Positions 14,400-53,797 of a DNA stretch of 64,000 nucleotides are shown here, piece by piece. Source of the DNA: Thuidium tamariscinum (taxonomy: Eukaryota; Streptophyta; Bryopsida; Hypnales; Thuidiaceae); NCBI GenBank assembly GCA_947034885.2, contig OX344751.2, positions 46,467,082 through 46,531,081 on the forward strand, written 5' to 3'. Within the stretch, counting starts at the first letter, position 1. Each line of letters opens with the position of its first letter. The notes below the pieces were generated by a model. That model did not search any database. It was not told the origin of the DNA and was given only the letters and a program-made list of their open reading frames with translations. A program made the translations under genes and the position numbers.

Positions 14400-15558
14400 T
14401 TCTTTAGTTCCGATCAACCCTTTTTTTTACTTTCTGATCACTTCAAACTTCGTGAAGCATTGTGTTTCTACATTCATCCATATTTTGGTCTAAAAACACT
14501 TTTCCATCATATTCATACACTTTTTCATCCTAATTTGACAACTTCATCCTTACTTTAAAGAGAATTGGAAATTTTCTTGGCAAAAAAAGATTACTTTTAT
14601 CTGGCGAAAAAAAGACATTTATTTTGAAACGGTGCAATGACTGCAATCTGGCCATGGTGCCGGCAAAAAAAGGGCTGGTTCCGATAGTCCCTCTCCCGGA
14701 CCGCGGTCCTTACCTATCGCCGCGCTCATCGAGCACCAGCGATGGCCACTTCATCAGCTCTAGAATCGCGACGCAGCTTGCCATCTGTCGAGGTGAATTG
14801 AGGGCGTGTGCGTCCTCCGCCTGCCTGTCGATCCGCACTGCCTTCTGGTTTTGTTGGATCTTCAGTTCTCTTTTATTTTTTTGAAAGTAAAGGTGGAATC
14901 TCCATTGCCTCATTCGACGGGCGTCCGTCTTGAGCCGGTCGGTTTAGGTTCCTGGAGGGTCTTTCGGTGGTGGTGCGCTGGATTCCTTCGTCGGCTAGCT
15001 CGAGAACTCGATTTTTATCTGGGACTGCGGCTGGTGTTGGGAATCGTTGAAGTTCAGAGTTGGATCAGATGCAGTAACGAAATTGGTAGTGTTGAGCACT
15101 ATTCCTGCGGGCGGGTTCTTTTGGCTTGAGCTATCTTAGTTTGTTATTGGTTCACTAACCCTTTTTCGGAAGGTCCTTTGAACCTCCTTTGTGAGCGGAT
15201 CTTGGTCATATTGGAGGTCTTGGTGAGTTTCCTAGGGTAGGGCGATTTTTTCATTGAAGTGTGCGATCCTCTGCTGGGGATGATTTATGTTATCTTTTTT
15301 TGGTCATGGGAGTTTGCCTGATTAAGGTTTCTTGGGTTCAGTGTAGGGTTTCTGAATTGCAATGTTTCTATTTGCCTTTCGTCTTTCATCTTCGCTTACA
15401 TTTCGTGGTGACGCGCAGGTCATCGAATGCTGCGATGTTTTTACATTAATGAAAGCAGGGCGAGCTTGTGACTGGAGCGAGTGTTTAATCAGCATGTGAT
15501 CCTCAGATGATATACCGTCTGTTTTGTATCGATTCCGTGCTGTGCACAGGAGGAACAG
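14400..15558 (+). promoter_or_regulatory. AP-3 delta promoter and 5' leader region
   Basis: Base composition switches from AT-rich to balanced at about 14625 and stays so into the AP-3 delta reading frame. This fits a promoter and transcribed leader. An ATG at 14742 opens a 17-codon frame that runs into a possible splice donor (GTGAAT at 14793), so a spliced 5' leader is possible. Short frames on both strands here (14624-15449) are not recognised and are left out as genes. Confidence 0.4.
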
Positions 15559-18500
15559 GTGGCCATCGGTTATTTAGGGTTCGGGGAAATTGGGATGGCT
15601 ATGGCGGCGTCGGCAATGATGGAGTCCTTGTTTCAAAGGACATTGGACGATCTGGTGAAAGGCTTGCGGCTGCAAATGATAGGCGAGTCGCGATACTTGG
15701 CGAAAGCATTGGAGGAGGTTCGGAAGGAGATGAAGTCCACGGACCCTGTCATCAAGGTGACTGCTCTTCAGAAACTTACATACTTGCAGATGGCCTGCGG
15801 AGCTGACATGTCGTGGGCATCGTTTCACATAGTGGAGGTTATGACCATGCCCAAATTTGCGCACAAAAAAGTGGGCTACCTCGCGGCGGCACAGAGTTTT
15901 CATGAAGGAACTGATGTTCTGGTCCTCACTACAAACTTGCTTAGAAAGGACATGGGAAGTAAGAACGAGTATGAGACAAGCATGGCCATCGAATGCCTGT
16001 CGCGAATTTTGAATGCGGATTTGGCAGCTGCCCTGACCCCGGAAGTATTCACCTTGATGGCTAGTAGCCGGAGTTTCCTGCGTAAGAAGGCTACCCTAGT
16101 GTTATTGAGGGTTTTTGTGAGGTTCCCTGATGCCATTAGGGTCGCTTTTAAACGACTTGTGGAGAAGATGGAGGACGCGGATCCACAGGTAGTGTGTGCT
16201 GCAGTAAGCGTTTTGTGTGAACTTACTTTAAGAGATCCTCGGGCGTATCTTCCTCTTGCACCCGAGTTTTATAGACTTTTCGAAAACTCCGTCAACAATT
16301 GGCTTTCAATTAAGCTTGTGAAAATCTTTGGCGCTTTGACTCCCCTGGAACCCCGCTTGGGACGCAAAATAGCAGGGCCTTTGTGTGATCACATGAGGAA
16401 GACGCATGCGAAATCACTGTTGTTTGAATGCATCCGCACGGTGACGTTTGGGTTGATTGAGCATGAGGGAGCTGTTAAGCTATGCGTGGAGAAACTGAGG
16501 GAAAACATGGCGCTTGGGGATCCAAATTTGAAGTACTTGGGATTGAAAGCGCTTGCTGCCTTGATGAATTCACATCCATGGGCTCTGGAATCAAGTAAGG
16601 AAGTCATTATCAAGTGTCTGAACGACGGGGATTTAAGCATACAGAGGAGCGCTCTCGTTCTGATTATGGGAATGGTTTCTGAAATCAATGTTGAGGAGAC
16701 AGTGCAGGTGCGAATCAATAAAATAGAGGTTTTCTGGATCAAAATTTGCATCGCTTTGGGGGTTTGCATTATTGACCAGTGTTGTTATGCTGGTAGTATG
16801 CATAGTTTTGCTCGCAATGCGAATTGGGTGGCCAGGACCACAGGCTGCAGATTCTCAAACGCCTCAAGTGTGTATTAACACCAATATTTGCTTTGCAGGT
16901 TTTACTTCGCTATGCGCAGTCAGCAAACGCGGACTTCTGCAACGAACTAGTGTCGTCAATACTTCAGACATGTAGCCGGGTTCGGTATGAGCTCGTGTCT
17001 GATTTTGGCTGGTACGTATCAGTTTTGGCGGACATCGCTCGCATCCCCCACAGTGAACATGGAGATGAAGTAGGTCGCCAGCTCGTGGACATTGCACTCC
17101 GGGTGGAGTCTGTACGGATAGATGTGGTGAGAGTCTCACGTGGCCTCCTTGTCGACCCCGCCTTCCTTGGGAGACCTGCTTTGCGAAGTGTGCTTTGTGC
17201 GGCAGCTTGGATAGTCGGAGAATACATTGAACGAGCACCTCTCGGACCTTATGAAATCTTGGAGGCTCTTCTCCAACCTCGCACTCGTCTTCTGCCTTTC
17301 TCGGTACATGCGGTCTATCTTCAGGGGGTCTTGAAGGTTTTTGTATCATATGCCAATAGCAAATCTTTTGGAAAGTCACAAATCCCTGAGCAAGAGGAAT
17401 CTGGTGGGCCAGGTGAGGGAGGGTCATTGCATGCGGCGGTGGAATTGATAAAAGAGAATGTTTCTCCTTTGGTGAGTAGCATGGACATGGAAGTGCAGGA
17501 GAGGGCGTGTAATGTATTGGGATTGATTCAACCGTTTGAGGATCCCAATAATGCAGGGAGAATGAAGGAAGGTTTTAAAACGTTAACTGCCCTGAGCGAG
17601 GTGTTTTCATTAGAATTGGGACCTGTCTCTATGCATGCGCAGGGCAGAGTTTCTTTACCTAACGGTCTTTCAATTGAAGAGAATCTTGATGCTCTAGGTC
17701 CTGTTGACAGCAATGATGATGTGTTCCTGCACGCTGGAGAGGCAAGACCTAGCACTACTTATCGGGAATGGGAAGCTGAATTCAACTTCCAACCACCAAG
17801 TAAAGAAAACTCTTCTGCTGTGGATTCTAGTGCTGCGTTGTTACAGCAGCATCGTCATAGACATGAGAGTTTTTATTTGCCAACTGATGCACCCTCTGTG
17901 GATTATCCGCCACCTCAGCTTACAGCATCCACGGGAGCTGCGTCTCACGCTCCATCTGATTCATCTATTTTCAATGATAGCTCCCTGTTGCGGGCTAAGC
18001 CCCGACAAGGGAAGGCACGCAGGCCAGTAGTTGTTGCATTGGATGACGATGATGATTTGCCTGGAGTTTCAGCACCTGTGAGCAAAAAAGGGTTGAAGGA
18101 TGAGTTGGTATTTAGTGCAATCCGAGATGCACTTTCTGCAGACGGGAACAAGGGTCACAGTGCTGCTGACGGTTTAGAGAGTTCTCTTACTGCGTCCTCC
18201 TCAAGGAAGTCTTGGCATAGCCATCAGTCTAAGAAGAACAGAGAGAAGACTGGTCCCAGGGAGGCTGATGAAGGGGGAGGTGATACGGGTGAAGGTCTGG
18301 ATAACGAAGTTGGCAGGCAAACATCAGATATCGGTCATAAGGAGCACAGGAGGAGCAGACATAGACCCTCAAAACATGAGATACTGGTATTACCAAATAA
18401 GGACGGGTCTAGTAGTGAAAATGACAAGGAAGGTACATTCCAACTCAGCCAAAAGACACACAGAAAGAAACACAAACATCGATCTTCTCATCGGCACAAC

Positions 18501-18569
18501 CGACGTCAGGGGAAAAGCCCTGTTTCCGCGCCCCAGAATACCGACCCGATTCCTGATTTTCTCCTCTAG
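15559..18569 (+). CDS. AP3D: AP-3 adaptor complex subunit delta (delta-adaptin)
   Basis: Large subunit of the AP-3 vesicle coat, which in plants routes cargo from Golgi or endosomes to the vacuole (family knowledge). Exon 1 is 15559-16707 and exon 2 is 16899-18569, joined in phase 0 (VQ|VLLRYAQ), giving 939 residues. Arabidopsis delta has about 870. Residues about 20-600 are the helical-repeat adaptin N-terminal trunk, with family motifs LFQRTLDDLVKGLRLQ, YETSMAIECLSRI, LTPEVFTL, NLKYLGLKAL, IPHSEHGDEV and LLQPRTRLLP. The C-terminal tail is low-complexity: an acidic run (LDDDDDLPG) and a Lys/His-rich stretch (THRKKHKHRSSHRH). The open frame starts at 15559, but the ATG at 15595 or 15616 (MESLFQR) matches the usual family start better, so the first 12-19 residues are uncertain. 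No lesion is seen. Confidence 0.93.
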
Positions 18570-28193: not shown

Positions 28194-28879
28194 TTAACCC
28201 GTAAAGGTTTTGGGAGTGATTTTGGAAAAAGTAGTCAAAATAGGGGTGTTTGTGGAATGTAAAGAGTGGACAAGAATCAACAAATTTTTTGGGACCACCA
28301 ACCGTAAGATCTTGAGCTTGTCTTCATTGTGAAGACACCTACCAATTTTCAACTGCAAATTCTTTGAATTGAGTGAGATCTAATAGTTCAAAGTTGGAAT
28401 TTATTTTTTTCTCACTGTAAAAATCCCGGGCAGCTGCACTTAGAGTGCCAAATTCCTCATCTATACAATTCCATTTTCATTGTAAAAGTTTAGATTGCAT
28501 TTCCCATACAAGTTAGGAGCATTCTCAAAAAATTTGAAAGTCATCACACTCCTAGAACATTAGGAAAACAACATGATTGTAGGCATAGGTTTTAAAAAAG
28601 TAGTATACACTAGCATGTTTTCAATTGCCAAATTGGAACTTCTAATGAGTTTGGATTAGAAATTTGAATGGTGGAGACAATGAGGTATGCATACTTCATC
28701 ATTAGAAATTATGATCTATGAAAAATTTGAAAATCTCAAAATTTGGCATCACAAATTTAGCCACAGCCTCCTGTGTAAGTTTCAGGTCTTTGGGCACCCT
28801 TCAAATACTGGGCCCTTAGAGTGCACATCCCGGGTCTACTTCTGACTGATGAAAAAATCCTTGACAAAACTGAAATCTC

Positions 28880-29230
28880 CCTTGTTTGACCGGTGTAGCA
28901 GCCTAGCACGGGGCTGGCCAATTCAACTATCTGGGCAGGGCTGACCAGCCAAGGGCCGTTGACCCGCCCATGGGGGTGCCAGGCTGAGCCAAATCCCCTG
29001 CCCAATGGGGGTTGGTCCGCCTGCCCCACCCAATGGGGTGGCTAGCCTACCTGCTGGCCCGCCCTGGCTCACCACTGCCGGCCCGCCCAAGGGCCTTGGG
29101 CTGGGAATCATGCCGGCCTCCTCCCACGGATGCAAAATGTGAGCACTCCAGGGACTCTCACAGTCCAGGGACTTTTTTGAGCAACCACTCCAGGGACTCA
29201 TTTGAGTAGCCACAGTCCAGGGACTTGAAT
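28880..29230. repeat. GC-rich block with CCAGGGACT repeats inside the piggyBac-like element
   Basis: 28880-29110 is strongly GC-rich with many GGCC, CCCGCC and CAATGGGG words. 29148-29225 contains four spaced copies of CCAGGGACT. It stands out from the AT-rich surroundings. Open frames on both strands here (28757-29240) reflect the base composition and match nothing I recognise. Confidence 0.6.
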
Positions 29231-29420
29231 CCCTATACAATAAAATTTGAATAAGTCTTAGTAAACACTTCTGGCTACAATCCTTGAAATAAAAGTAACA
29301 TTACTATTACACAAGATTTTTCAAACTAATATAAAATGACATAGACAAATATACAAAGTTTTAGGATAAATATGAAAGGGATAGGAAAAAAAGTTGAGAA
29401 GGTGAAAAAAGTACTTTAGA

Positions 29421-29733
29421 ACATAGGCAAAAAAAATGGAAAGGTAATAGATTACTTGGGGCTCAAAATAACTTAGAATGAGGTAGGGTAAAAAATTGAA
29501 AAGGTGAAGAAATAACTCTACTACACATAGGCAAAAAAAATGGGAAGGTAATAGATTACTTGGGGCTCAAAATAACTTAGAGTGAGGTAGGGTAAAAAAT
29601 TGAAAAGGTGAAGAAATAACTCTACTACACATAGGCAAAAAAAAATGGGAAGGTAATAGATTACTTGGGGCTCAAAATAACTTAGAGTGGGATAGGAGAA
29701 AATATAGAGAAGGTGAAGAAATAATGTTTGAAC
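29421..29733. repeat. 104-bp tandem repeat, three units
   Basis: Units start at 29421, 29525 and 29629 with ACATAGGCAAAAAA and contain 'taatagattacttggggctc'. A partial unit precedes them at about 29378. The array ends 12 bp from the transposase stop codon. The repeated peptide in the frame at 29521-29739 is a by-product of the repeat. Confidence 0.9.
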
Positions 29734-29745
29734 ATGCACATCACC

Positions 29746-32700
29746 TCATGGTCTTTGTGAGCGGTTGTAGCGTGCTTGATTTCGGGGCCCATAATGATAT
29801 TCTTCAAAACATCCACGGTTCAAGCATAAAAATACACGGTTGCAACGACGACAATAGAAGCTACACCTTGTGTCCCCGCACAATAGACATGCACGCCTCA
29901 AGCGACTAGAAGTTGGCATGTGAGGACGCGGGTCTCTCTCTTCTTCATCTACATCCGTTCCTCGCCCACGCCAATTCAATGTGAGTGCATCACACAAATC
30001 GGCCTTGAACTGTAAGTGAGTAATCGGTTTCTTTGGATGACACCTTTGACGCAAGGTCTCCAAATAGATGACATACATATTGACCACCGTAGTGTCCAAT
30101 AGGAAGTAGAAAACTCGATGCCACCACTTGTGTGACCTCGTTTGGCAAGAGTATGAGGCTCTAAGTTGGTCCGCCACATCCACCCCTCTCATGTGTGTGG
30201 TATATTCAAGATGTATAGGAGAAGTCTGTATTGGATCCCTTGCTGCCCCATTTCTACGTGGAACCGTCAGTACAGGCACATATGGAAAGCCAATAGGCAA
30301 TGCATTTGTGGATAAAAGGAGCACTGGGCGTTTGTCCTTCCACATAACACATGCAATGCCACGAGATTCATGCATCCTCCACTCTAACGTGCCTTGCGGT
30401 GAATTGCTCCAATTTTGAACCGCTTTCAATTCCGTTGGTAGGCCCACGCGATTAGACCTCATCGTCCCAGTGGCATAAATTTCTCGTGTAGCTAACTCCG
30501 TAAATAAGCCAATGCTAGAAAAATAGTTGTCTGTGACAACAACATGTCCCTTTCCCTCTTGGCCATTCAACAACCTTGTAACCACGTTGTGTGCTACATT
30601 AGCCTCTTCATGAACCATTGCTGGTACTTCTCCTACTCCTTCATGGTTGGCCCCACAATAGATTTCGAAGTTGTACACATATTTTGATGTAGAGTCCGCC
30701 AAGCACCAAACCTTTATGCCCCATTTCAATGGCTTCTTAGGCATATATTGCCTAGCAGGGCAATAGGAGCCCTTATAGCGTATCATCATTTCATCCACTA
30801 TAAGGTACTTCCCCAAAGTCCACTCGCACTTGAAACTATCTCTAATTTCATTTGCAAGCCACCGCACTTGTCCCATCTTGTCATAACTGGGCATATCTCT
30901 TTGTCCAACATAGTTTGAAGGAATTAGTGACATGAAGGCATCTAGTGATATCTTGGAACCTCAACCTAGATAGGATTTTAGAAATCCGAGGACAATGAAA
31001 AAAAGAGCCTTCTTTGCTCCAATAGGTCTTCATGTTTGGTTGCTTCTTCAACCCCATGAAAATGCGAGCTGCTAAATAGGCCTTCAAAGTCTGAATTGTG
31101 ATAGGCAACCATCCTTCTTCCCCCCTTGTTTTTCCATGCTCATCCGGTGTAGTGGCATAACAATTAGTCTCTATCACTATTTTCCGCAACAAAGTGTTTG
31201 GCCAAAACAATGAAAACAATTGCATAAATGTAGGCATCATGTGCCAAAAAGTTGTGGGCCCCCGTGCACCTACAAATGTCTTGGGCTTTGGATCATAGGT
31301 GAAATTGGATTGTGACCACGTTGAATTACGGAATCTATGCTTCACACCCTCTGGATTCTCCAGATCCCCTCCATCACTACTTTCATCCCCATCATATGCA
31401 TCCTCATTGTCAAGCAATTCATTCAACATTGAAGCACCTTCATGTGTATTCCTTGCTCGAACCTTCCCTCTGAATTCCACTCTAGAAGAATTGGCATGTA
31501 CTTGAGTGGCACGCCCATGATGCCGTTGTTGACGATGAGGTATGGAATTAGGATCCTCTTCATCAAAATTGTTGTTCTCTTCATTCACCCACTCCGGTTG
31601 AAAAGGTAGGACACCAAATGCATGATCCTGCCTGAAACTAGCACTATAAAGTTTGAGACATGTCCAAACCAAAAATATTCTAATTTTGAGAAGACAAGTT
31701 TATAACACCTATGTTGATTTTGACAACATAACTAGTAGGCTACCATCAAAACTCAAATGGTAATGTAAATTGAGACTTTGGAAATAGAAGATGACATTTT
31801 GGCATGTTGAAATAAAATAGGAGTTCTAACCATACATTCTATTTCACAAGGATTTTACAAAATATAGAGCTATCATTATATGAACATTGAAATTATAAGG
31901 TTGCAAATAATTACTTCTTGTGTAGAATTCCTTTGTAGAAGAAGAATATACATCTTCATTAGAATCATATCTGATAAGTTTTATGAATTGCAATTGTTGC
32001 TTGATTCAAAAATCATTCATTGAAATTGTATATAAAGATTCATTTTTACACTCTACAAGTTCCAAAAAATAAAATGAGAACTTCATAATCACACATACTA
32101 CCTATATAAGTAAGAAGACCATGAATGCACGGACCTATTATTATTTGAACAATGAAATTTGTATGTAAAAATAACCTTTCTCTAGGAAGTTCAAATGTCT
32201 CATATATTTTGTTAGAAAAAGGTACATGTTTACTAGGATAACCACTTAGAAGGTTCATGGAGATTGTGTTTAGATGAATTTGCAATCCTAGTTTGTCCTA
32301 TATTTTACTTCCACATTTTATAGTTTGTTTTGACTCCAAGAATTCTTCTCATATAATTGAAAGAAATTCAAAATAATACCTAATACCTAATTATATGAAG
32401 AATACATATTATGAACTATGACAATTTGTGGAACATTGAAATTTCTATGTGGCAAAAGAGTTCTCTTGGGGAGTGAAAGTGGGTCATTTCTTTTGCTAAG
32501 GGAAATGTACATGTTCACTAAAACCATATCTTATGACTTTTAGGGGTTTTGTTTTTATATTGATTGAAGTTATATTGCATGGAATTTGACCACTTCAATT
32601 TGTTCTTCATTTACACTCTATGAACCTCCCAAAAAATGTTCAAAAACAAAAAATAAAAAACAAAAAACATCAAATAAATATATGTATGAAGAACATTTAC

Positions 32701-34644
32701 ATTTATATTGAAATATGAATATGTCTATATATACATTACCAAATTCCGCATATAAGTTTTGTAAATTTTTTATTTATTATGCCCTTCCATTGGATAACAA
32801 AAACATATGAGTATTTAAAAAATCTTAGCTAACTATCCTCCTAAACCCAACAACTTAGGGTGGATCTAGTTCACCCACCTAAAGGGCCTGTCCCCAGCAA
32901 TTCCCCCTTCCTCGCCTTGCTGCAGCTGCTCTCCAGCGTCCCGTTGCAGGTTCTCCCCTGTGTCCCGGTACTGGTGCCCCCCTCCGTCTCGGTACTGGTG
33001 CCCCTCTCCATCCCGGTACTGCTGCCCCCCTCCGTTCCGGTACTGTTGCCCCCCTCTGTCTCGGTGCGGCTGGCCCCCGGCGCCTTCCACGGCAAAATCG
33101 GCAAAGTCCACAGGTCCTCCCTCCATGCCAGGCGGGAAAACTTGGGCCCTTGGATTCTCATTCCCTCCTGGCCATGCAGACGCGGGGTTCACGAGGCTGC
33201 AACGGTCACTTGAGTCTCCCGTTCTTCCATACGCCGAACTCGGACCCGCCTTGTCTGCGACTCTTGGCTTCATTTTTCTCCCCTGCCGCGTTTCTCTCTC
33301 TACATGTTTGTTGCCGAAGGAAACTTCGCTGTGCAGAAGCTCCGGAGGCCAACTACATGCGTCTAGGTAGAAGTCCCGTTCATCATCTTCTTCAGACTCA
33401 GAGGAAGCACCCTCGCAAGATGAAAGTCGTGGCAGTGCCCACCTGTCTTCTTGTTCTTGGCTTTCCAACAAGTCGAAATTTGTTTCACCGATGGGCATGT
33501 CTACATGTTCTGTAGGACGAGGATGCTCTGTAGGATGAGGATGCTGTGGAGCATCATTACTACCTGATGAGTTTGAATCGGTAGGTGAGCCATGGCTGGC
33601 AAGGCGTTGAGACATTGCGGTTGGAGCCGTTCACTGCGCCATGGAGGAAGGTCCTCCTTTGCTAGCTGCAGCCAACACAAGATGGGTGAGGTTAGTCATG
33701 TTTCTAATTTGGTTTTGAAAGCTTTGTATTCTCTAATAAAATGAATATATTGTTTGTACAGTGGTCATATGCAACTTACCCATTTTCCTTTCTCGAAGCG
33801 TGCTCTCCTCGGCATTTCGGTTGGAAGAACTTCTTTCTTTTGCAATAGGAAAATCAGGCCACACTTGTTCCTTGACAAGTGTAGGAATTAGTGGATGAAA
33901 CTGCCTCCTTTGACACCACCCTAAGCACCTTGCTGCTTGTCTATAGAAGTAGTGACGGTAGTTTGCTGGTACTGGATCTACAGGCCACTTTGCAGTACCT
34001 CTTGGAACTGATAGAGAATGTAAGTACTCTGGATTTAGCAAAGCCACCACTCTAGATGCTTGATTCGCAGATGCTCCTTCGTGGTGAGTGAGAAGTTGAA
34101 ATAGTTGATGTTCAACCGAGGTCGTTTGTGTAACGTCCTCCTGTATTTGAACTTGCATGAACTGAGGGTGTCTGTCGATTGCAGAGAACTCCTCCCTTTG
34201 ATGGTCCCTTGCTGCCCTATTGATGTCGATCTGCTGCTCTGATTGGTGTGGACTCACCGCGATGCCAATAGGGTGAGTCTGCGTCGAACCTCCGACGTCA
34301 CTTCGCAGTTGAAGTTCGGCGCCACTGGGGTGAGTCTGCGCCAAATCTGTTCTCCCACAAGTCTGCAACTCGGTGCCGACTTCCCAACTCTCCACGCCGC
34401 GGCTGCCGAACTGAAGCCCCTTCTACTGCCGCTGGTCGCCTTTGGGTGCTCCGTCGATGAAGGAGATCTTCCGCTTCTCCGCTCGCAGGTGACCACCTCC
34501 ACCGCTGTCGAGCTTCGTCTCCGCTTTGCCGGCACTAGACGTCGCTGCTGGTTCAGAAGCCCCGCCCTGTTGCAGCTGCGGCAACGTCCTTCCCACTTGA
34601 ACTGGTTCCTGATCACTTGGTTTGTGCACTGCGTTTGTAGTCAT
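29746..34644 (-). pseudogene. piggyBac-like transposase gene, three predicted exons, disrupted
   Basis: DDE transposase of the piggyBac family (DDE_Tnp_1_7), which would excise and insert DNA at TTAA. Exon 3 (31631-29746) holds the family core: an N-terminal part up to 'RCLHVT', then YDKMGQVRWL, VDEMMIRYKG (first catalytic Asp, 30793-30795), YMPKKPLKWGIKVW, TDNYFSS (second Asp, 30529-30531), GVDVADQ (third Asp region, 30169-30180) and a C-terminal Cys-rich zinc-binding motif (CLLCGDTRC..CRRC). A one-base shift near 30915-30930 splits the core into two frames (31672-30881 and 30933-29746). Upstream, 34644-33780 and 33665-32879 join in phase to exon 3 through GTAAGT..CAG and GTGGGT..CAG introns, predicting about 550 extra N-terminal residues. 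This upstream part carries an in-frame TAG (34425-34423) and TGA (33633-33631). With three lesions it is probably inactive. The core assignment is firm. The three-exon chain is inference, and the upstream exons could be a separate gene. Confidence 0.75.
32950..33070 (-). repeat. 24-bp coding minisatellite (QQYRDGGG units)
   Basis: Within predicted exon 2 of the transposase gene, about five units of 24 bp encode diverged octapeptides of the form (Q/H)QYRDGGG. The frame-preserving period suggests expansion under coding constraint, at least in the past. It is Gln/Arg/Gly-rich and likely disordered. Confidence 0.8.
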
Positions 34645-35687
34645 GTTACATGTGGATTGGATTGTGAACTATGGGGAATGCTAGGGAAGTATTTGTGGCA
34701 TTGTGTTTTCCTTGTTTAGATAGTAATGAATAACCGGCAAGGAGAGTGAGACAGATTTTTGTCGTGCAAAATATTTCGAAATTTGTGTTCCTGCTTGTGG
34801 GATGATGCGCTCAATTTCAAGTTTTGACGGTTCATTACTGATCTTCTTTAGGTAGGCAAGATATCAGTTGCCAAAATTAAATTTTCTTCTGTTAAAATTT
34901 TTGTTGAGATCACTGTGCATCTCAGATCATGGTCATGAATCATAGGTGACTGTAAGCTATATTCAGTTTGTGTCATACCTAATTGAAAGTTGCAACCTCT
35001 ATTTTTTTGAATTTCCAATAGGAAATAGTAGCACAATTATGTCATGATTTCAGCTTTGAAGCAGTAATCAAGATGAATGAAGTACATTATAGTAACTATG
35101 CAAAATTGCCATATTTTTGTTGTTCCAAAATCAGTTGAAGGTATTGCATTTGTAGAGTTTATCATTTGGAAGTTCCAGGATATAGCCAAGATTTAGTTCA
35201 CAAACACAGCAGTGGACCTCCATTTTCAGTTGACCGTTATTGCTTCATTTCATGGCGAAGTCTGGCACTTCCTTAGCTCCACTTGGCCTTGCTGTATGGC
35301 AGCCCTGATCACCATTGAAGAGTGTTATAAATGAGGATTCTGAATCCAAGACTGACAGAAGAAGAAGAAGAAAGGGAACCCATTCTTTTGTGGATTCAAC
35401 CCCCTGCCCTGAACTCTGCCCCTGGCCCTTGGGGCAAGTTCACAGAAATTTAGCCTTAGTGTAAATTGTGTTGCCCGTGCTGCCCTCAGACTAGCCCAAA
35501 GTACTTGTCCTTGAATAACTCTTTTTGTATAAATGAGAAAGGGTTGGGAATTGTTGCACTTGAAAGCTACTCCTCAAGCATTCTTTGTGTTAAAATTTCA
35601 TGACCAAATACCCAATATTCCACTAGTACTGGCCTGACTAAAAAAGTTATGTTTCCAAAAAACACTATTTGGTCCTTTAGGGGTTAA

Positions 35688-46300: not shown

Positions 46301-49300
46301 GCCAATATTAGGAATGGAACTTATCTCAGTGGACCTGAATCATGATTTTGACACAGGTTTGGGAGGAATGCACTTGGTCACTTTGTCAGTAGAAGGGGGA
46401 GGCCATCTGCCTCCCACAACAATATCCCCGGGTGACATGGTCTGTGTTCGCATATCTGACAAGAAGCGAGGAGGGTCAACTATGGAATGTATGCGAGGCT
46501 CAGTTTACAGTTTGGCTGAAGACAAGAACAGCATCGCCGTTGCCATTGAGGCTCGATACGGCGATCCCACGTTCTCTCGCCTGTTTGGAAAGTCATTGCG
46601 CCTGGACCGCATCAGTGCACTTGCTGATGCGACCACATATCAGGTTTTCTCTCCTTGCACTTGCATTTGACATAATTTATACATGATGGAATCGTTGACC
46701 AGCTTCGTGGTACATGTTTGAAATCACACCAGCAGTCAAGTTCTCAGTCGCTAGTATAGAATCCTCATCAGAGGAGCTCTAACAACTGCAGTCACGTTAA
46801 CCCGGCCAATTTGAAATGCCATTTGGGACTCGGTCCCTTCTAAGTCGGCTACATTTTTGAAGACATCTTTTGGTAGGTTTTCTACCAGTGTACACCGTGG
46901 AGAAGTATGTTTCGCTAGCTTTGGAAGGATCTTTGCACTGAAGTGCTGTCGCAGGAAACATGTTGCCACATGCTTTTACATGTCTGCAAGTGGGCTTGCA
47001 CTGCAGGGAACTTAGAGAGTAGCTTGGAAGGGATTGTATTTGATCCTCCGAATCAGAATTTTTGAGGAACTGTCATTTTATTCCTGATTACTTACGTCGC
47101 TACTTGCTTGTTATTGTTGCGAGCATCATGCTTTCTTCTGACTATGACTTCGCGATTTTGTCAGCGTGACTGTGAAGCGCTAGTGCGACTTCAAAAGCAT
47201 GGGCTACAGAAGAAGAACCCGGCATCCTCCGTAGTGGCCACCCTCTTCGGGCAAGGCCCCGATATCTGTTGGCTAGCGCAGAATGGACCCCTATTGCCAA
47301 TTCCCAAGTTCGAAAAGTCCTCTTTGACAGAGATTCGATTTGATGATTCTCAGAAGCAAGCCATCCAAATGGGGTTAGACAGGAAAAGGCCCGTGGTGGT
47401 GATCCAAGGGCCTCCAGGAACTGGGAAGACTAGCGTCGTCACAGAGCTCATAGAGAGGGCAGTGCTACGCGGGGAGCGGGTGCTTGCAACTGCACCCACC
47501 AACGCAGCCGTGGACAACATGGTGGAAAGGCTGGCAAACGCAGGTCTGAACGTAGTCCGGGTCGGGAACCCCGCCAGGGTAGCCCCCGCCGTTTCTGCGA
47601 GGTCGTTGAGTTTCATCGTCGACAAGAGGCTGACAGCTTTTCGAAGAGATTTGGTGAGGAGGCGGGCCGACTTACGTAGTGATCTACGCCAATGTCTGGA
47701 CGACGACTCAGTAGCTGCTGGCATTAGGCAGGTGTTGAAGCAGCTGGGCAAGACCTTAAAACAACGAGAAAAGGAGGCGATCAATGATGCTTTGACATCT
47801 GCACAGGTGCGTTTTTTGTAGCCAACCAACTGAGTTGCTGCTTCATATTTCTTGGCTAGGATGTTGCTGCAAAGTCTTGGAATTTTTCCTGAAGATAGAT
47901 TTGCACCATGTAGATCCAACGCACTTTTCTGAATGTTTTGGTCGCCCCAACCTGGACTACTATTACTTAGAACCCTTGCCTCGTTCTCACTGGTCACCAT
48001 TGCTTCCTGCATTTTTGGAGCATGGCTTCGTCCCTCTCCGTTGTGTAACGAGAAGAAAAGGATGTTCCTCTGTTCATATACGGACCGTTGGAAGATAATT
48101 TATACGAACCGCTCTATCCAGGTCGTCCTCTGCACAAACACAGGAGCGGGTGACCCACTGATTCGCAAATTGGAGGCTTTTGATCTGGTGGTGGTGGATG
48201 AAGCGGCACAGGCAATAGAGCCGTCCTGCTGGATTCCTCTGTTGCAGGGCAGACGCTGTGTCTTGGCTGGGGATGCTTGTCAACTGGCCCCCACAATTAT
48301 GTCGCGAGAGGCCCTCGACGGTGGCCTCGGCGTCTCTCTCATGGAGCGAGCAGGAGCTTTGCATGACGGTCTCCTGAGTACCATGTTGAGCATCCAGTAC
48401 CGCATGCATCATGCCATCGCACTGTGGGCATCATACGAAATGTACGGAGGTCGATTGCGTTCGGCTCCTGCTGTAGCATCTCACCTTCTCCGTGACTCCC
48501 CCAGCGTTACGGTAGGGTCCTTGTTGTATGGATTTCATTCAATACTCTGGTCTATCAATTGTGCTCCAGTGTCGGTTGGTTTTGTGTTTTCTCATCTTGT
48601 GATCCCTGACATCTTCTGGTTTTTCTGCTGGTTACCAAAAGCAAGAGTCCCTTGCTTATTATGTAGGTGACTCCTGCTTGTGATAGTGAGGGGGGAAAAA
48701 AACGATTGTGAAGAATCATGTGATACTCGACTGCGAGGTGCCATGTGTATTTGTTTACAAAACTCGAATTTTTGAAAGATGGTCAGGTTTGGATACTTAC
48801 TGACCTATGTCTGTTTGAATGTCTGTTTCTAGAACTCTCCGATCACGAAGGTACCTATGTTGCTATTAGATACGCGACTACCATTTGGAAGTCTGATACC
48901 CGGTTGCGAAGAGCGTTTGGACCCAGCAGGAACCGGATCCTTTTACAATGAAGGGGAGGCAGACATCGTGGTCGACCACATTCGTGCCCTCCTTGGGACA
49001 GGTAACCTTAACCTCAAAACTGCATAATTAGGGTCTCAGCCTAAAGCAAGTCTCTTTAGGCTGGAGTTGTACTTTCTCACCTACTGACGTTACAGTATTA
49101 CTAGTCATGTTGTATTGCTACGACATACTTAGCTTGTAGAACACTGTGCTCTAGTCAATCGCTATAGCCTAAAGTCACTTGCTTTAATCTGTGACACAAA
49201 GAATGTAGTGGAGTCCATGCTTAGTCCATTTCAGATTTGACTGCGAGTTGAAGTTTCTTCCATGTGCAGACTTATATTTTAATATCAATGTGCTGTAAGT

Positions 49301-52665: not shown

Positions 52666-53666
52666 TTAGAACCACGAGCTCTTCTTCTCAGGCTGCTCTG
52701 CATCACCAGTCTGTTGGGTAGCCTGACCATCATCTCCCCCGGCCTTCTGGTCGTCGTCGTCGTTGCCAAAGTGCTGGTAAGCCTCGTACCCGGCAACTCC
52801 CAACACTCCTGCGCCAACTACGCCTCCTGCCACCTCTGCCACCAACTTCTTGCGACGATGCTCTCGCTCATCATCATCAATGTCCGTGCGATCCTTCAAA
52901 TTCTCGACCTGCATAATAATTACACATATCCGAAGGCTCAACACACGACCCGTCGATTGCCATTCAACAAATGAACATTCTAATCCCACAAAGTCATCGT
53001 CTTGTACCAACATAAACATGAAAAGTAAAGTTAATAAAGATCCCACAAAACGAAGAAGTGCATCAATCCATGCATCATGCTCGTCGTTATTATGACCGTG
53101 AACGTAGTTTTCCAAGCCTTTGAAACGTTTGATCACTCAAGACAGTAATAATATTCAGCATTCAGAGGCAAGGCAAGAGGGAAGAAAGAGATTCATTCGC
53201 ATGAGCCAGATACGTAAAAACTTACATCCTCCCTGTTGAACTGGCTGTTCTGGAATTCATCGGGAGTGCCATCGCCATCGGAATCCTTCTGTTGCGATCC
53301 ATAGCCGGAGGTGGATTTTTGACCATAGCCTGCGTCAGCAGTGTCGTCTCCATATCCGGTGCTGGTTTTCTGACCGTAGCCTGCGTCGGTAGTATCGTCT
53401 CCATATCCAGTGCTGGTTTTCTGACCATAACCCCCCTGGCCAGCATCGTCTCCGTAGCCGGTGCTGGTTTTCTGACCATAACCCCCCTGACCAGCATCGT
53501 CTCCGTAGCCGCCAGTTTGCTGACCGTAGCCTCCCTGAGTAGTGTCATCTCCATAGCCGCTAGTCTTCTGGCCATATCCTCCCTGAGTGCTGTCTCCCAA
53601 GGTGGAGTCATCCCCGTAGCCCGACTGCTTGCGGCCACCGTAGCCGGAGTCGTCGCCGTAAGACAT
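52666..53666 (-). CDS. Gly/Tyr/Asp-rich repeat protein with C-terminal hydrophobic segment
   Basis: Two exons, 53666-53226 and 52908-52666, join in phase 0 (RED|VENLK) through GTAAGT..GCAG, giving 227 residues. I do not recognise a named family. Residues about 1-125 are tandem units of roughly 16 residues built on GYGDD..GGYGQKTST and predicted disordered. Next comes DSDGDGTPDEFQ (about 128-139), which resembles the Asp-rich calcium-binding loop of thrombospondin type 3 and dockerin repeats. After it is a charged stretch (DRTDIDDDEREHRRKK) and a small-residue hydrophobic segment VAGGVVGAGVLGVAGYEAY (about 173-191), then an acidic/Gln-rich tail ending KKSSWF. A TATA box lies about 132 bp upstream. 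The composition resembles stress-related glycine-rich proteins, but function is unproven. The ATG at 53666 begins the repeat domain directly. The frame continues upstream to 53750 without an obvious reason to use it. Confidence 0.8.
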
Positions 53667-53797
53667 GATGGAATGTAAATGGGTCAGAGACTGGCACGCA
53701 AATTCGGTAAGAAGCGGAAGGACTGCCTGCAATTGTAACTGAATATTCAAGGTCGATGAGGTGACTGATGTGAGGGACAGGTGGGCAGTCGAACTTC

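Follow-up and report, generated by a model that had tools for sequence, protein, structure and literature searches.

A piggyBac element in a 64-kb stretch of plant DNA (C3:46467082-46531081, hereafter the window) carries, judging from its pattern of conservation, a second conserved gene in addition to the transposase gene that was recognized in the initial annotation, and that account is to this extent incomplete. We refer to the second gene as open reading frame 1 (ORF1) and to the transposase frame, which opens inside the tail of ORF1, as ORF2. Our preferred reading, which we consider probable, is that of a land-plant piggyBac element in which ORF1 and the overlapping ORF2 are both likely expressed from one spliced message, with the transposase being produced by leaky scanning. 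A broader proposal, which we advance more tentatively and with some doubt, is that a clade of land-plant piggyBac elements forms a two-protein system, in which an undescribed accessory protein would be encoded by ORF1, upstream of and overlapping the transposase frame, and an AUG-purged ORF1 would tune transposase production via leaky scanning. This layout would be old, since it is common to lineages only 35–40% identical to one another.

A second conserved coding region in a piggyBac element

The transposase is recognized on the minus strand by the Pfam family DDE_Tnp_1_7, in two pieces that lie in two frames (29746-30960, E = 1.3e-52; 30881-31699, E = 3.1e-19). The VDE, TDNYF and GVDVADQ motifs reported in the initial annotation are present and align with the transposases of piggyBac (6x67) and piggyBat (9c0f). 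When a profile of six uninterrupted exon-3 frames was compared to the PDB at E values up to 1, it matched only piggyBat (2.1e-27) and piggyBac (9.8e-24). Three aspartates (the D of IDE/VDE, TDN and GVD/GMD) align with both solved transposases and are invariant in all six frames; the three aspartates of piggyBac transposases are catalytic.

With TTAACCC occurring 5 times and GGGTTAA 10 times in the window, the end motif alone could be due to chance, and the proof lies in the comparison of copies. Searching the genome (363 Mb, 19 contigs) with the transposase DNA produced 45 matches, including the window. We compared the window copy with 20 other fetched places, and fetched four more divergent places besides. 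Both ends were found in 17 of these 21 copies, always at TTAA, with the left end only in two others and the right end only in two. Of the 34 ends in these 17 copies, 32 begin with TTAACCC and two with TTAACCT. BLAST similarity among copies stops at TTAA or within ~20 bases of it, the 500-bp flanks of the end-to-end copies are mutually unrelated except for one 101-bp match at 71%, and these flanks average 30% G+C versus 40–43% for the elements. The end motif was found at both sides of three of the four divergent copies and at one side of the fourth. The boundaries originally placed at 28194-35687, with TTAA at both ends, are therefore right, as the same ends recur at TTAA in other copies. To the question raised with them, whether other copies might have different ends, the answer is mostly negative, as the copies read share the same ends, with the reservation that three places (L009:1050-1194, L020:8613-8752 and L030 near 438) have an extra right-end-like piece outside the element, possibly from neighbouring short copies.

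The window copy retains both ends, but its exon 3 is split over two frames, its exon 2 is frame-broken and its ORF1 has an internal stop, leaving the transposase frame not intact, which agrees with its earlier description as a near-complete but decayed autonomous copy. Its nearest relative among the 16 other end-to-end copies is 0.246 substitutions per site away, indicating that the window copy is old. The plant assignment also stood: the genome has 65 GRAS-domain matches, and as the distribution of GRAS domains points to land plants, the host is most likely one. The element is, by these features, an old, inactivated piggyBac DNA transposon copy of a land plant.

Aligning the 17 end-to-end copies revealed five conserved blocks: one at each end, one at the transposase exon, and two more lying between that exon and the right end. 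The latter two form a spliced structure with a GTAAG donor, a branch-like CTNAC motif and an AG acceptor (for counts, see Table 1), the first exon of which encodes ORF1. The ORF1 protein is ~320–350 amino acids (aa) long, with a conserved C-terminal domain of 75–90 aa. Over its last 119 codons, compared in eight copies, the ratio of nonsynonymous to synonymous divergence (dN/dS) was 0.15–0.35 in the 25 pairs, out of 28, whose dS exceeds 1, and 0.31–0.58 in the three closer pairs. ORF1 had no Pfam match above cut-off (the best, E = 0.0046, came from one of 13 domain members, and two whole ORF1 proteins gave none), and no credible match in the PDB, whether searched with single proteins or with an alignment (best E = 0.65). 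When modelled from a single sequence with AlphaFold2, the ORF1 domain of the window copy came out all-helical, at a low confidence (mean pLDDT 61.5) that supports no fold claim.

To place ORF1 relative to the transposase genome-wide, we searched with a 114-aa query, obtaining 150 scored matches among 245 candidates. For 101 of the 150, the same strand carries a listed transposase in the next 8 kb downstream; none has one upstream, and two have one on the opposite strand. Random placement yields 0.41 such pairings on average and 3 at most. ORF1 might instead be a host gene that was captured, or a nested element unrelated to piggyBac, an idea that would suit its lack of a Pfam family and the 49 of 150 matches without a nearby transposase among those listed. 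We consider this highly improbable, however, as ORF1 is common to subfamilies separated by dS above 1 and to a lineage at 35–40% identity, and paired copies of it sit upstream on the same strand. That ORF1 is linked to the transposase and under purifying selection speaks for a function in the element's life cycle, most likely that of an accessory to transposition or to its regulation.

An overlapping transposase start behind an ATG-poor stretch

In-frame splicing of ORF1 straight to exon 2 was ruled out, as the joined ORF1 frame stops 3–11 codons past the junction in all 17 copies. Exon 2 instead carries on another frame, opened by an ATG near the end of exon 1 (MPR..F.KGKW/LAxDDLPPRRS). This ATG was surveyed in 25 copies, of which L031 and L040 were unreadable (L022 lay outside the survey), and in each of the 23 readable copies, the 17 end-to-end copies and six further ones, it overlaps the ORF1 tail in a different frame. 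In L013, which belongs to the 17, a stop intervenes between the ORF2 ATG and the splice. In the ORF2 frame of exon 2, compared in seven copies, dN/dS was 0.18–0.31 between subfamilies, in the four pairs for which dS was finite, and 0.63 for a single close pair, while the other 14 reported pairs were saturated for synonymous change; for the transposase, dN/dS was 0.09–0.16 between subfamilies. Phase-2 donors near the end of exon 2 match the phase of the transposase exon in eight of nine copies, the ninth being the frame-broken copy of the window. ORF2 would then encode a full transposase with an N-terminal extension, ~860–890 aa in total if the three predicted exons are right.

The same arrangement is seen in a distant lineage, represented by L041 and L042, at 35% identity for the L041 transposase and 38–40% for the ORF1 domains. 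Both copies keep the order of ORF1 followed by transposase. Their ORF1 domain ends in WPD, and within a few codons an ATG opens a different frame, the same +1 frame as in the window family, after which L041 and L042 resemble each other (MSxQxxAKEAxRxAAxxRLxxRSPxxxRRVKR). In L041, the ORF1 frame continues for 945 aa into the transposase frame. We take this long frame to be a product of decay, because the copy has a separate ORF2 start in another frame and a stop. A fusion of ORF1 and transposase, considered on the basis of this frame, was dropped, as L041 and L042 both have a separate ORF2 ATG in another frame.

A related possibility is that ORF1 and ORF2 make one protein, in which ORF1 would form the N-terminal domain and either alternative splicing or a +1 ribosomal frameshift would connect it to the remainder of the transposase. 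ORF1 is upstream where it is paired with a transposase, both lineages read have ORF2 in the +1 frame, and the long frame of L041 spans both, all of which would fit. But the ORF2-frame similarity in the distant lineage begins at the ATG, L025 and L027 have ORF2-frame stops just upstream of the ATG, the separate start in L041 makes its long frame look like decay, and inspection by eye found no GT-AG combination joining the frames. A single protein would also leave the missing AUGs of ORF1, described below, unexplained, and we regard it as unlikely.

In copies with an open ORF1, the ORF2 ATG lies ~0.9 kb downstream of the first ORF1 ATG. If ribosomes scan to the ORF2 ATG, AUGs in between should be selected against. 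We counted ATGs in the 600 nt before the ORF2 ATG in 22 copies (leaving out L009, L022, L031 and L040) and found 50, compared to 171.3 expected from dinucleotides, with all 22 copies below expectation. No such depletion was found in control stretches, namely exon 3 (320 seen, 245.9 expected), the right end (144 and 143.9) and the flanks (482 and 419.6), and exon 2 of nine copies had 96 ATGs for 80.1 expected. A shuffle-based count in 13 chosen copies gave 32 ATGs versus 102.7 expected. Binning eight representatives placed the strongest depletion beside the ORF2 ATG (15 seen and 57.5 expected in the last 600 nt, 26 and 38.3 at 600–900 nt); it fades at ~900 nt, close to where ORF1 starts, and the other strand shows none. 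Over the whole open ORF1, L013 has no ATG for 8.7 expected and L015 has 5 for 13.1. Methionine is found in frame at only 5 of 1,805 ORF1 codons, and codon shuffles that preserve the protein gave 37.3 off-frame ATGs in sum, compared to 18 seen. Of the eleven other trinucleotides counted, GAT, TAG and TCA were slightly low besides TGA, and the remainder were at or above expectation.

Several observations weigh against leaky scanning through ORF1, or against the proposed gene structure. A few AUGs do persist between the two starts; depletion over the whole of ORF1 is weak in L010–L012 (8, 8 and 10 seen for 12–13 expected); and the codon-shuffle test is clear by itself only in L013. TGA is also low in the 600 nt (158 seen, 211.8 expected), with ATC and TAC high (317 for 212.8 and 227 for 134.4). 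Because they are related, the 22 copies are not independent and count effectively as about eight subfamilies. For the distant lineage, the two ATGs seen for 4.1 and 4.6 expected are too few to judge. The donors between exons 2 and 3 are weak, and similarly scoring donors occur in other phases as well. Finally, the 49 ORF1 matches lacking a listed transposase nearby may be solo remnants, or their transposases may be missing from the lists.

The ATG depletion fits leaky scanning and would also fit a transposase message of its own, with a leader beginning inside ORF1. With two messages, the ORF2 promoter would lie inside ORF1 and the AUG-poor stretch would be the transposase leader, and a leader of ~600 nt matches the strong depletion in the last 600 nt and the weaker depletion at 600–900 nt. 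Some depletion nevertheless extends in the direction of the ORF1 start, and the ORF1 reading frame contains intron 1, such that ORF1 and ORF2 would share exon 1 and its splice. We consider two messages a less likely alternative to one message.

Returning to leaky scanning from one spliced message, we propose the following. Working relatives of the window copy, going by their family membership, would encode a three-aspartate (DDD) transposase that excises the element at the CCC ends and reinserts it at TTAA. The reading frames themselves place the putative ORF2 start inside the ORF1 tail. A single spliced message would yield both proteins: as the AUG depletion suggests, some ribosomes would bypass the ORF1 start, meet few AUGs and initiate at the ORF2 AUG. 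The ORF1 protein, given its linkage and purifying selection, may then act as an accessory in transposition or its regulation.

Copies, lineages and other features of the window

The window family, with elements of 6.7–8.4 kb, includes recent copies, as L010, L011 and L012 differ by 0.5–0.7% and L015 and L018 by 0.8%. A DDE_Tnp_1_7 profile search of the genome gave 116 scored matches among 659 candidates and a search with the distant transposase gave 110 among 631; combining these with the DNA matches, there are at least 211 distinct transposase places. The window family is thus one of several abundant piggyBac lineages in this genome. At least 10 transposase places have the same score, 269.4 bits, with a 1,023-aa frame free of interruptions, and seem to be a further lineage that amplified recently (for example, C2:29973840-29975039, C2:46051893-46053092 and C5:1289005-1290204). 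At C8:23933884-23942167, C9:19502615-19519018 and C1:48030726-48090464, piggyBac matches of equal score form pairs with opposite orientations, which looks like duplication in inverted repeats. In L018, the flank just left of the element reads TTGTAACCCTAACCC before TTAA, telomere-like letters at an insertion site.

The window lies in a local cluster, since L022 (C3:46574424-46576338), a broken copy of the same family with ~0.7 kb inserted in its transposase, is ~43 kb past its right edge and a further copy (C3:46371289) is ~95 kb to its other side. The window also contains an adaptin gene (15511-18566, plus strand) with an Adaptin_N match, AP-3 delta-like by eye, which fits a land plant but is not proof of one, and a superfamily-1 helicase gene (47066-48667, plus strand) with an AAA_11/AAA_12 match, presumably of UPF1/IGHMBP2 type. 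An open frame at 53196-53795 on the minus strand, rich in GYGDD and GYGQK repeats and lying over a 48–51-bp tandem repeat, has no Pfam match. Rfam and tRNA scans of the window gave no match.

Table 1. Features of the piggyBac element, in window coordinates
Feature	Position	Strand	Basis or remark
TTAA target site, left	28194-28197	.	Window sequence and comparison with other copies
Left terminal inverted repeat, CCCGTAAAGG	28198-28207	+	10 bp; most other copies CCCCTAAA.G
Left subterminal region, conserved, without visible coding match	28208-28870	.	Mean identity 0.67–0.80, 17 copies
Tandem array of ~104 bp, 3.2 copies	29388-29724	.	Poorly conserved stretch 3' of the transposase gene
Exon 3, catalytic part of ORF2 (piggyBac transposase), in two frames here	29746-31631	-	Pfam DDE_Tnp_1_7; acceptor AG/GC predicted from alignment
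Exon 2, N-terminal part of ORF2 (LAxDDLPPRRS..DMPIG..), frame broken here	32879-33665	-	Splice sites predicted from alignment
Intron 1 (GTAAG donor, CTNAC branch-like motif, AG acceptor)	33666-33779	-	GT in 15/17, AG in 17/17 copies
ORF2 ATG (MPRRARFEKGKW/LA...), frame overlapping ORF1	33813-33815	-	ATG in 17/17 and 6/6 further readable copies
ORF1 conserved domain (HQLF..GASxxQAxxVVAL..NYRHxFYRQAARxLGW..RRQFHP..VWPD)	33853-34110	-	
ORF1 reading frame, probable ATG at 34644 to stop in exon 2	33631-34644	-	Internal stop at 34423-34425 here
Right subterminal region, conserved, upstream of ORF1	35388-35673	.	Mean identity 0.71–0.76, last 300 nt
Right terminal inverted repeat, CCCCTAAAGG	35674-35683	-	10 bp, inverted
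TTAA target site, right	35684-35687	.	Window sequence and comparison with other copies

Comparison with known transposons and viruses

The window family resembles the piggyBac superfamily, as represented by 6x67 and 9c0f, in its DDE_Tnp_1_7 core, three aligned aspartates, TTAA target and CCC ends, and also has by eye a Cys/His-rich C-terminus, only weakly aligned to piggyBat. It departs from ordinary piggyBac elements in its length, three predicted exons and long N-terminal extension, and from the typical single-gene layout in having a second conserved coding region that overlaps the transposase start. Animal piggyBac elements, in one survey, have single ORFs and reach lengths of up to 9.51 kb (PMC10813416). 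In three plant papers, piggyBac figures as a repeat class (PMC6890710), as a superfamily of miniature inverted-repeat transposable elements (PMC10004981) and as a superfamily and engineering tool (PMC10794571). Among open-access titles and abstract openings, with subscription journals and repeat databases outside that scope, we found none on leaky scanning, or on a second conserved ORF, in a piggyBac element.

If our proposal is true, piggyBac, treated as a one-protein transposon and a main genome-engineering tool, would gain a large clade in plants whose transposase start overlaps the gene of a conserved partner protein. Such a clade would be a possible source of plant-adapted transposases and would raise the question of whether ORF1 assists, targets or restrains transposition. 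The AUG purge would provide a sharp, falsifiable prediction on how a DNA transposon controls its transposase.

Pairing a transposase with a second, non-transposase protein is a feature of the plant DNA transposons MuDR, CACTA/En-Spm and PIF/Harbinger, and in this respect the window family is like them. The transposase family, target site and ends of those elements differ from those of the window family, whose transposase is DDE_Tnp_1_7 and whose ORF1 has no Pfam family above cut-off. In plant pararetroviruses, leaky scanning through AUG-poor genes is a virus strategy. Unlike these viruses, to which we claim no sequence relation, the window family consists of cut-and-paste transposons, but like them it has a downstream start located behind an AUG-depleted stretch.

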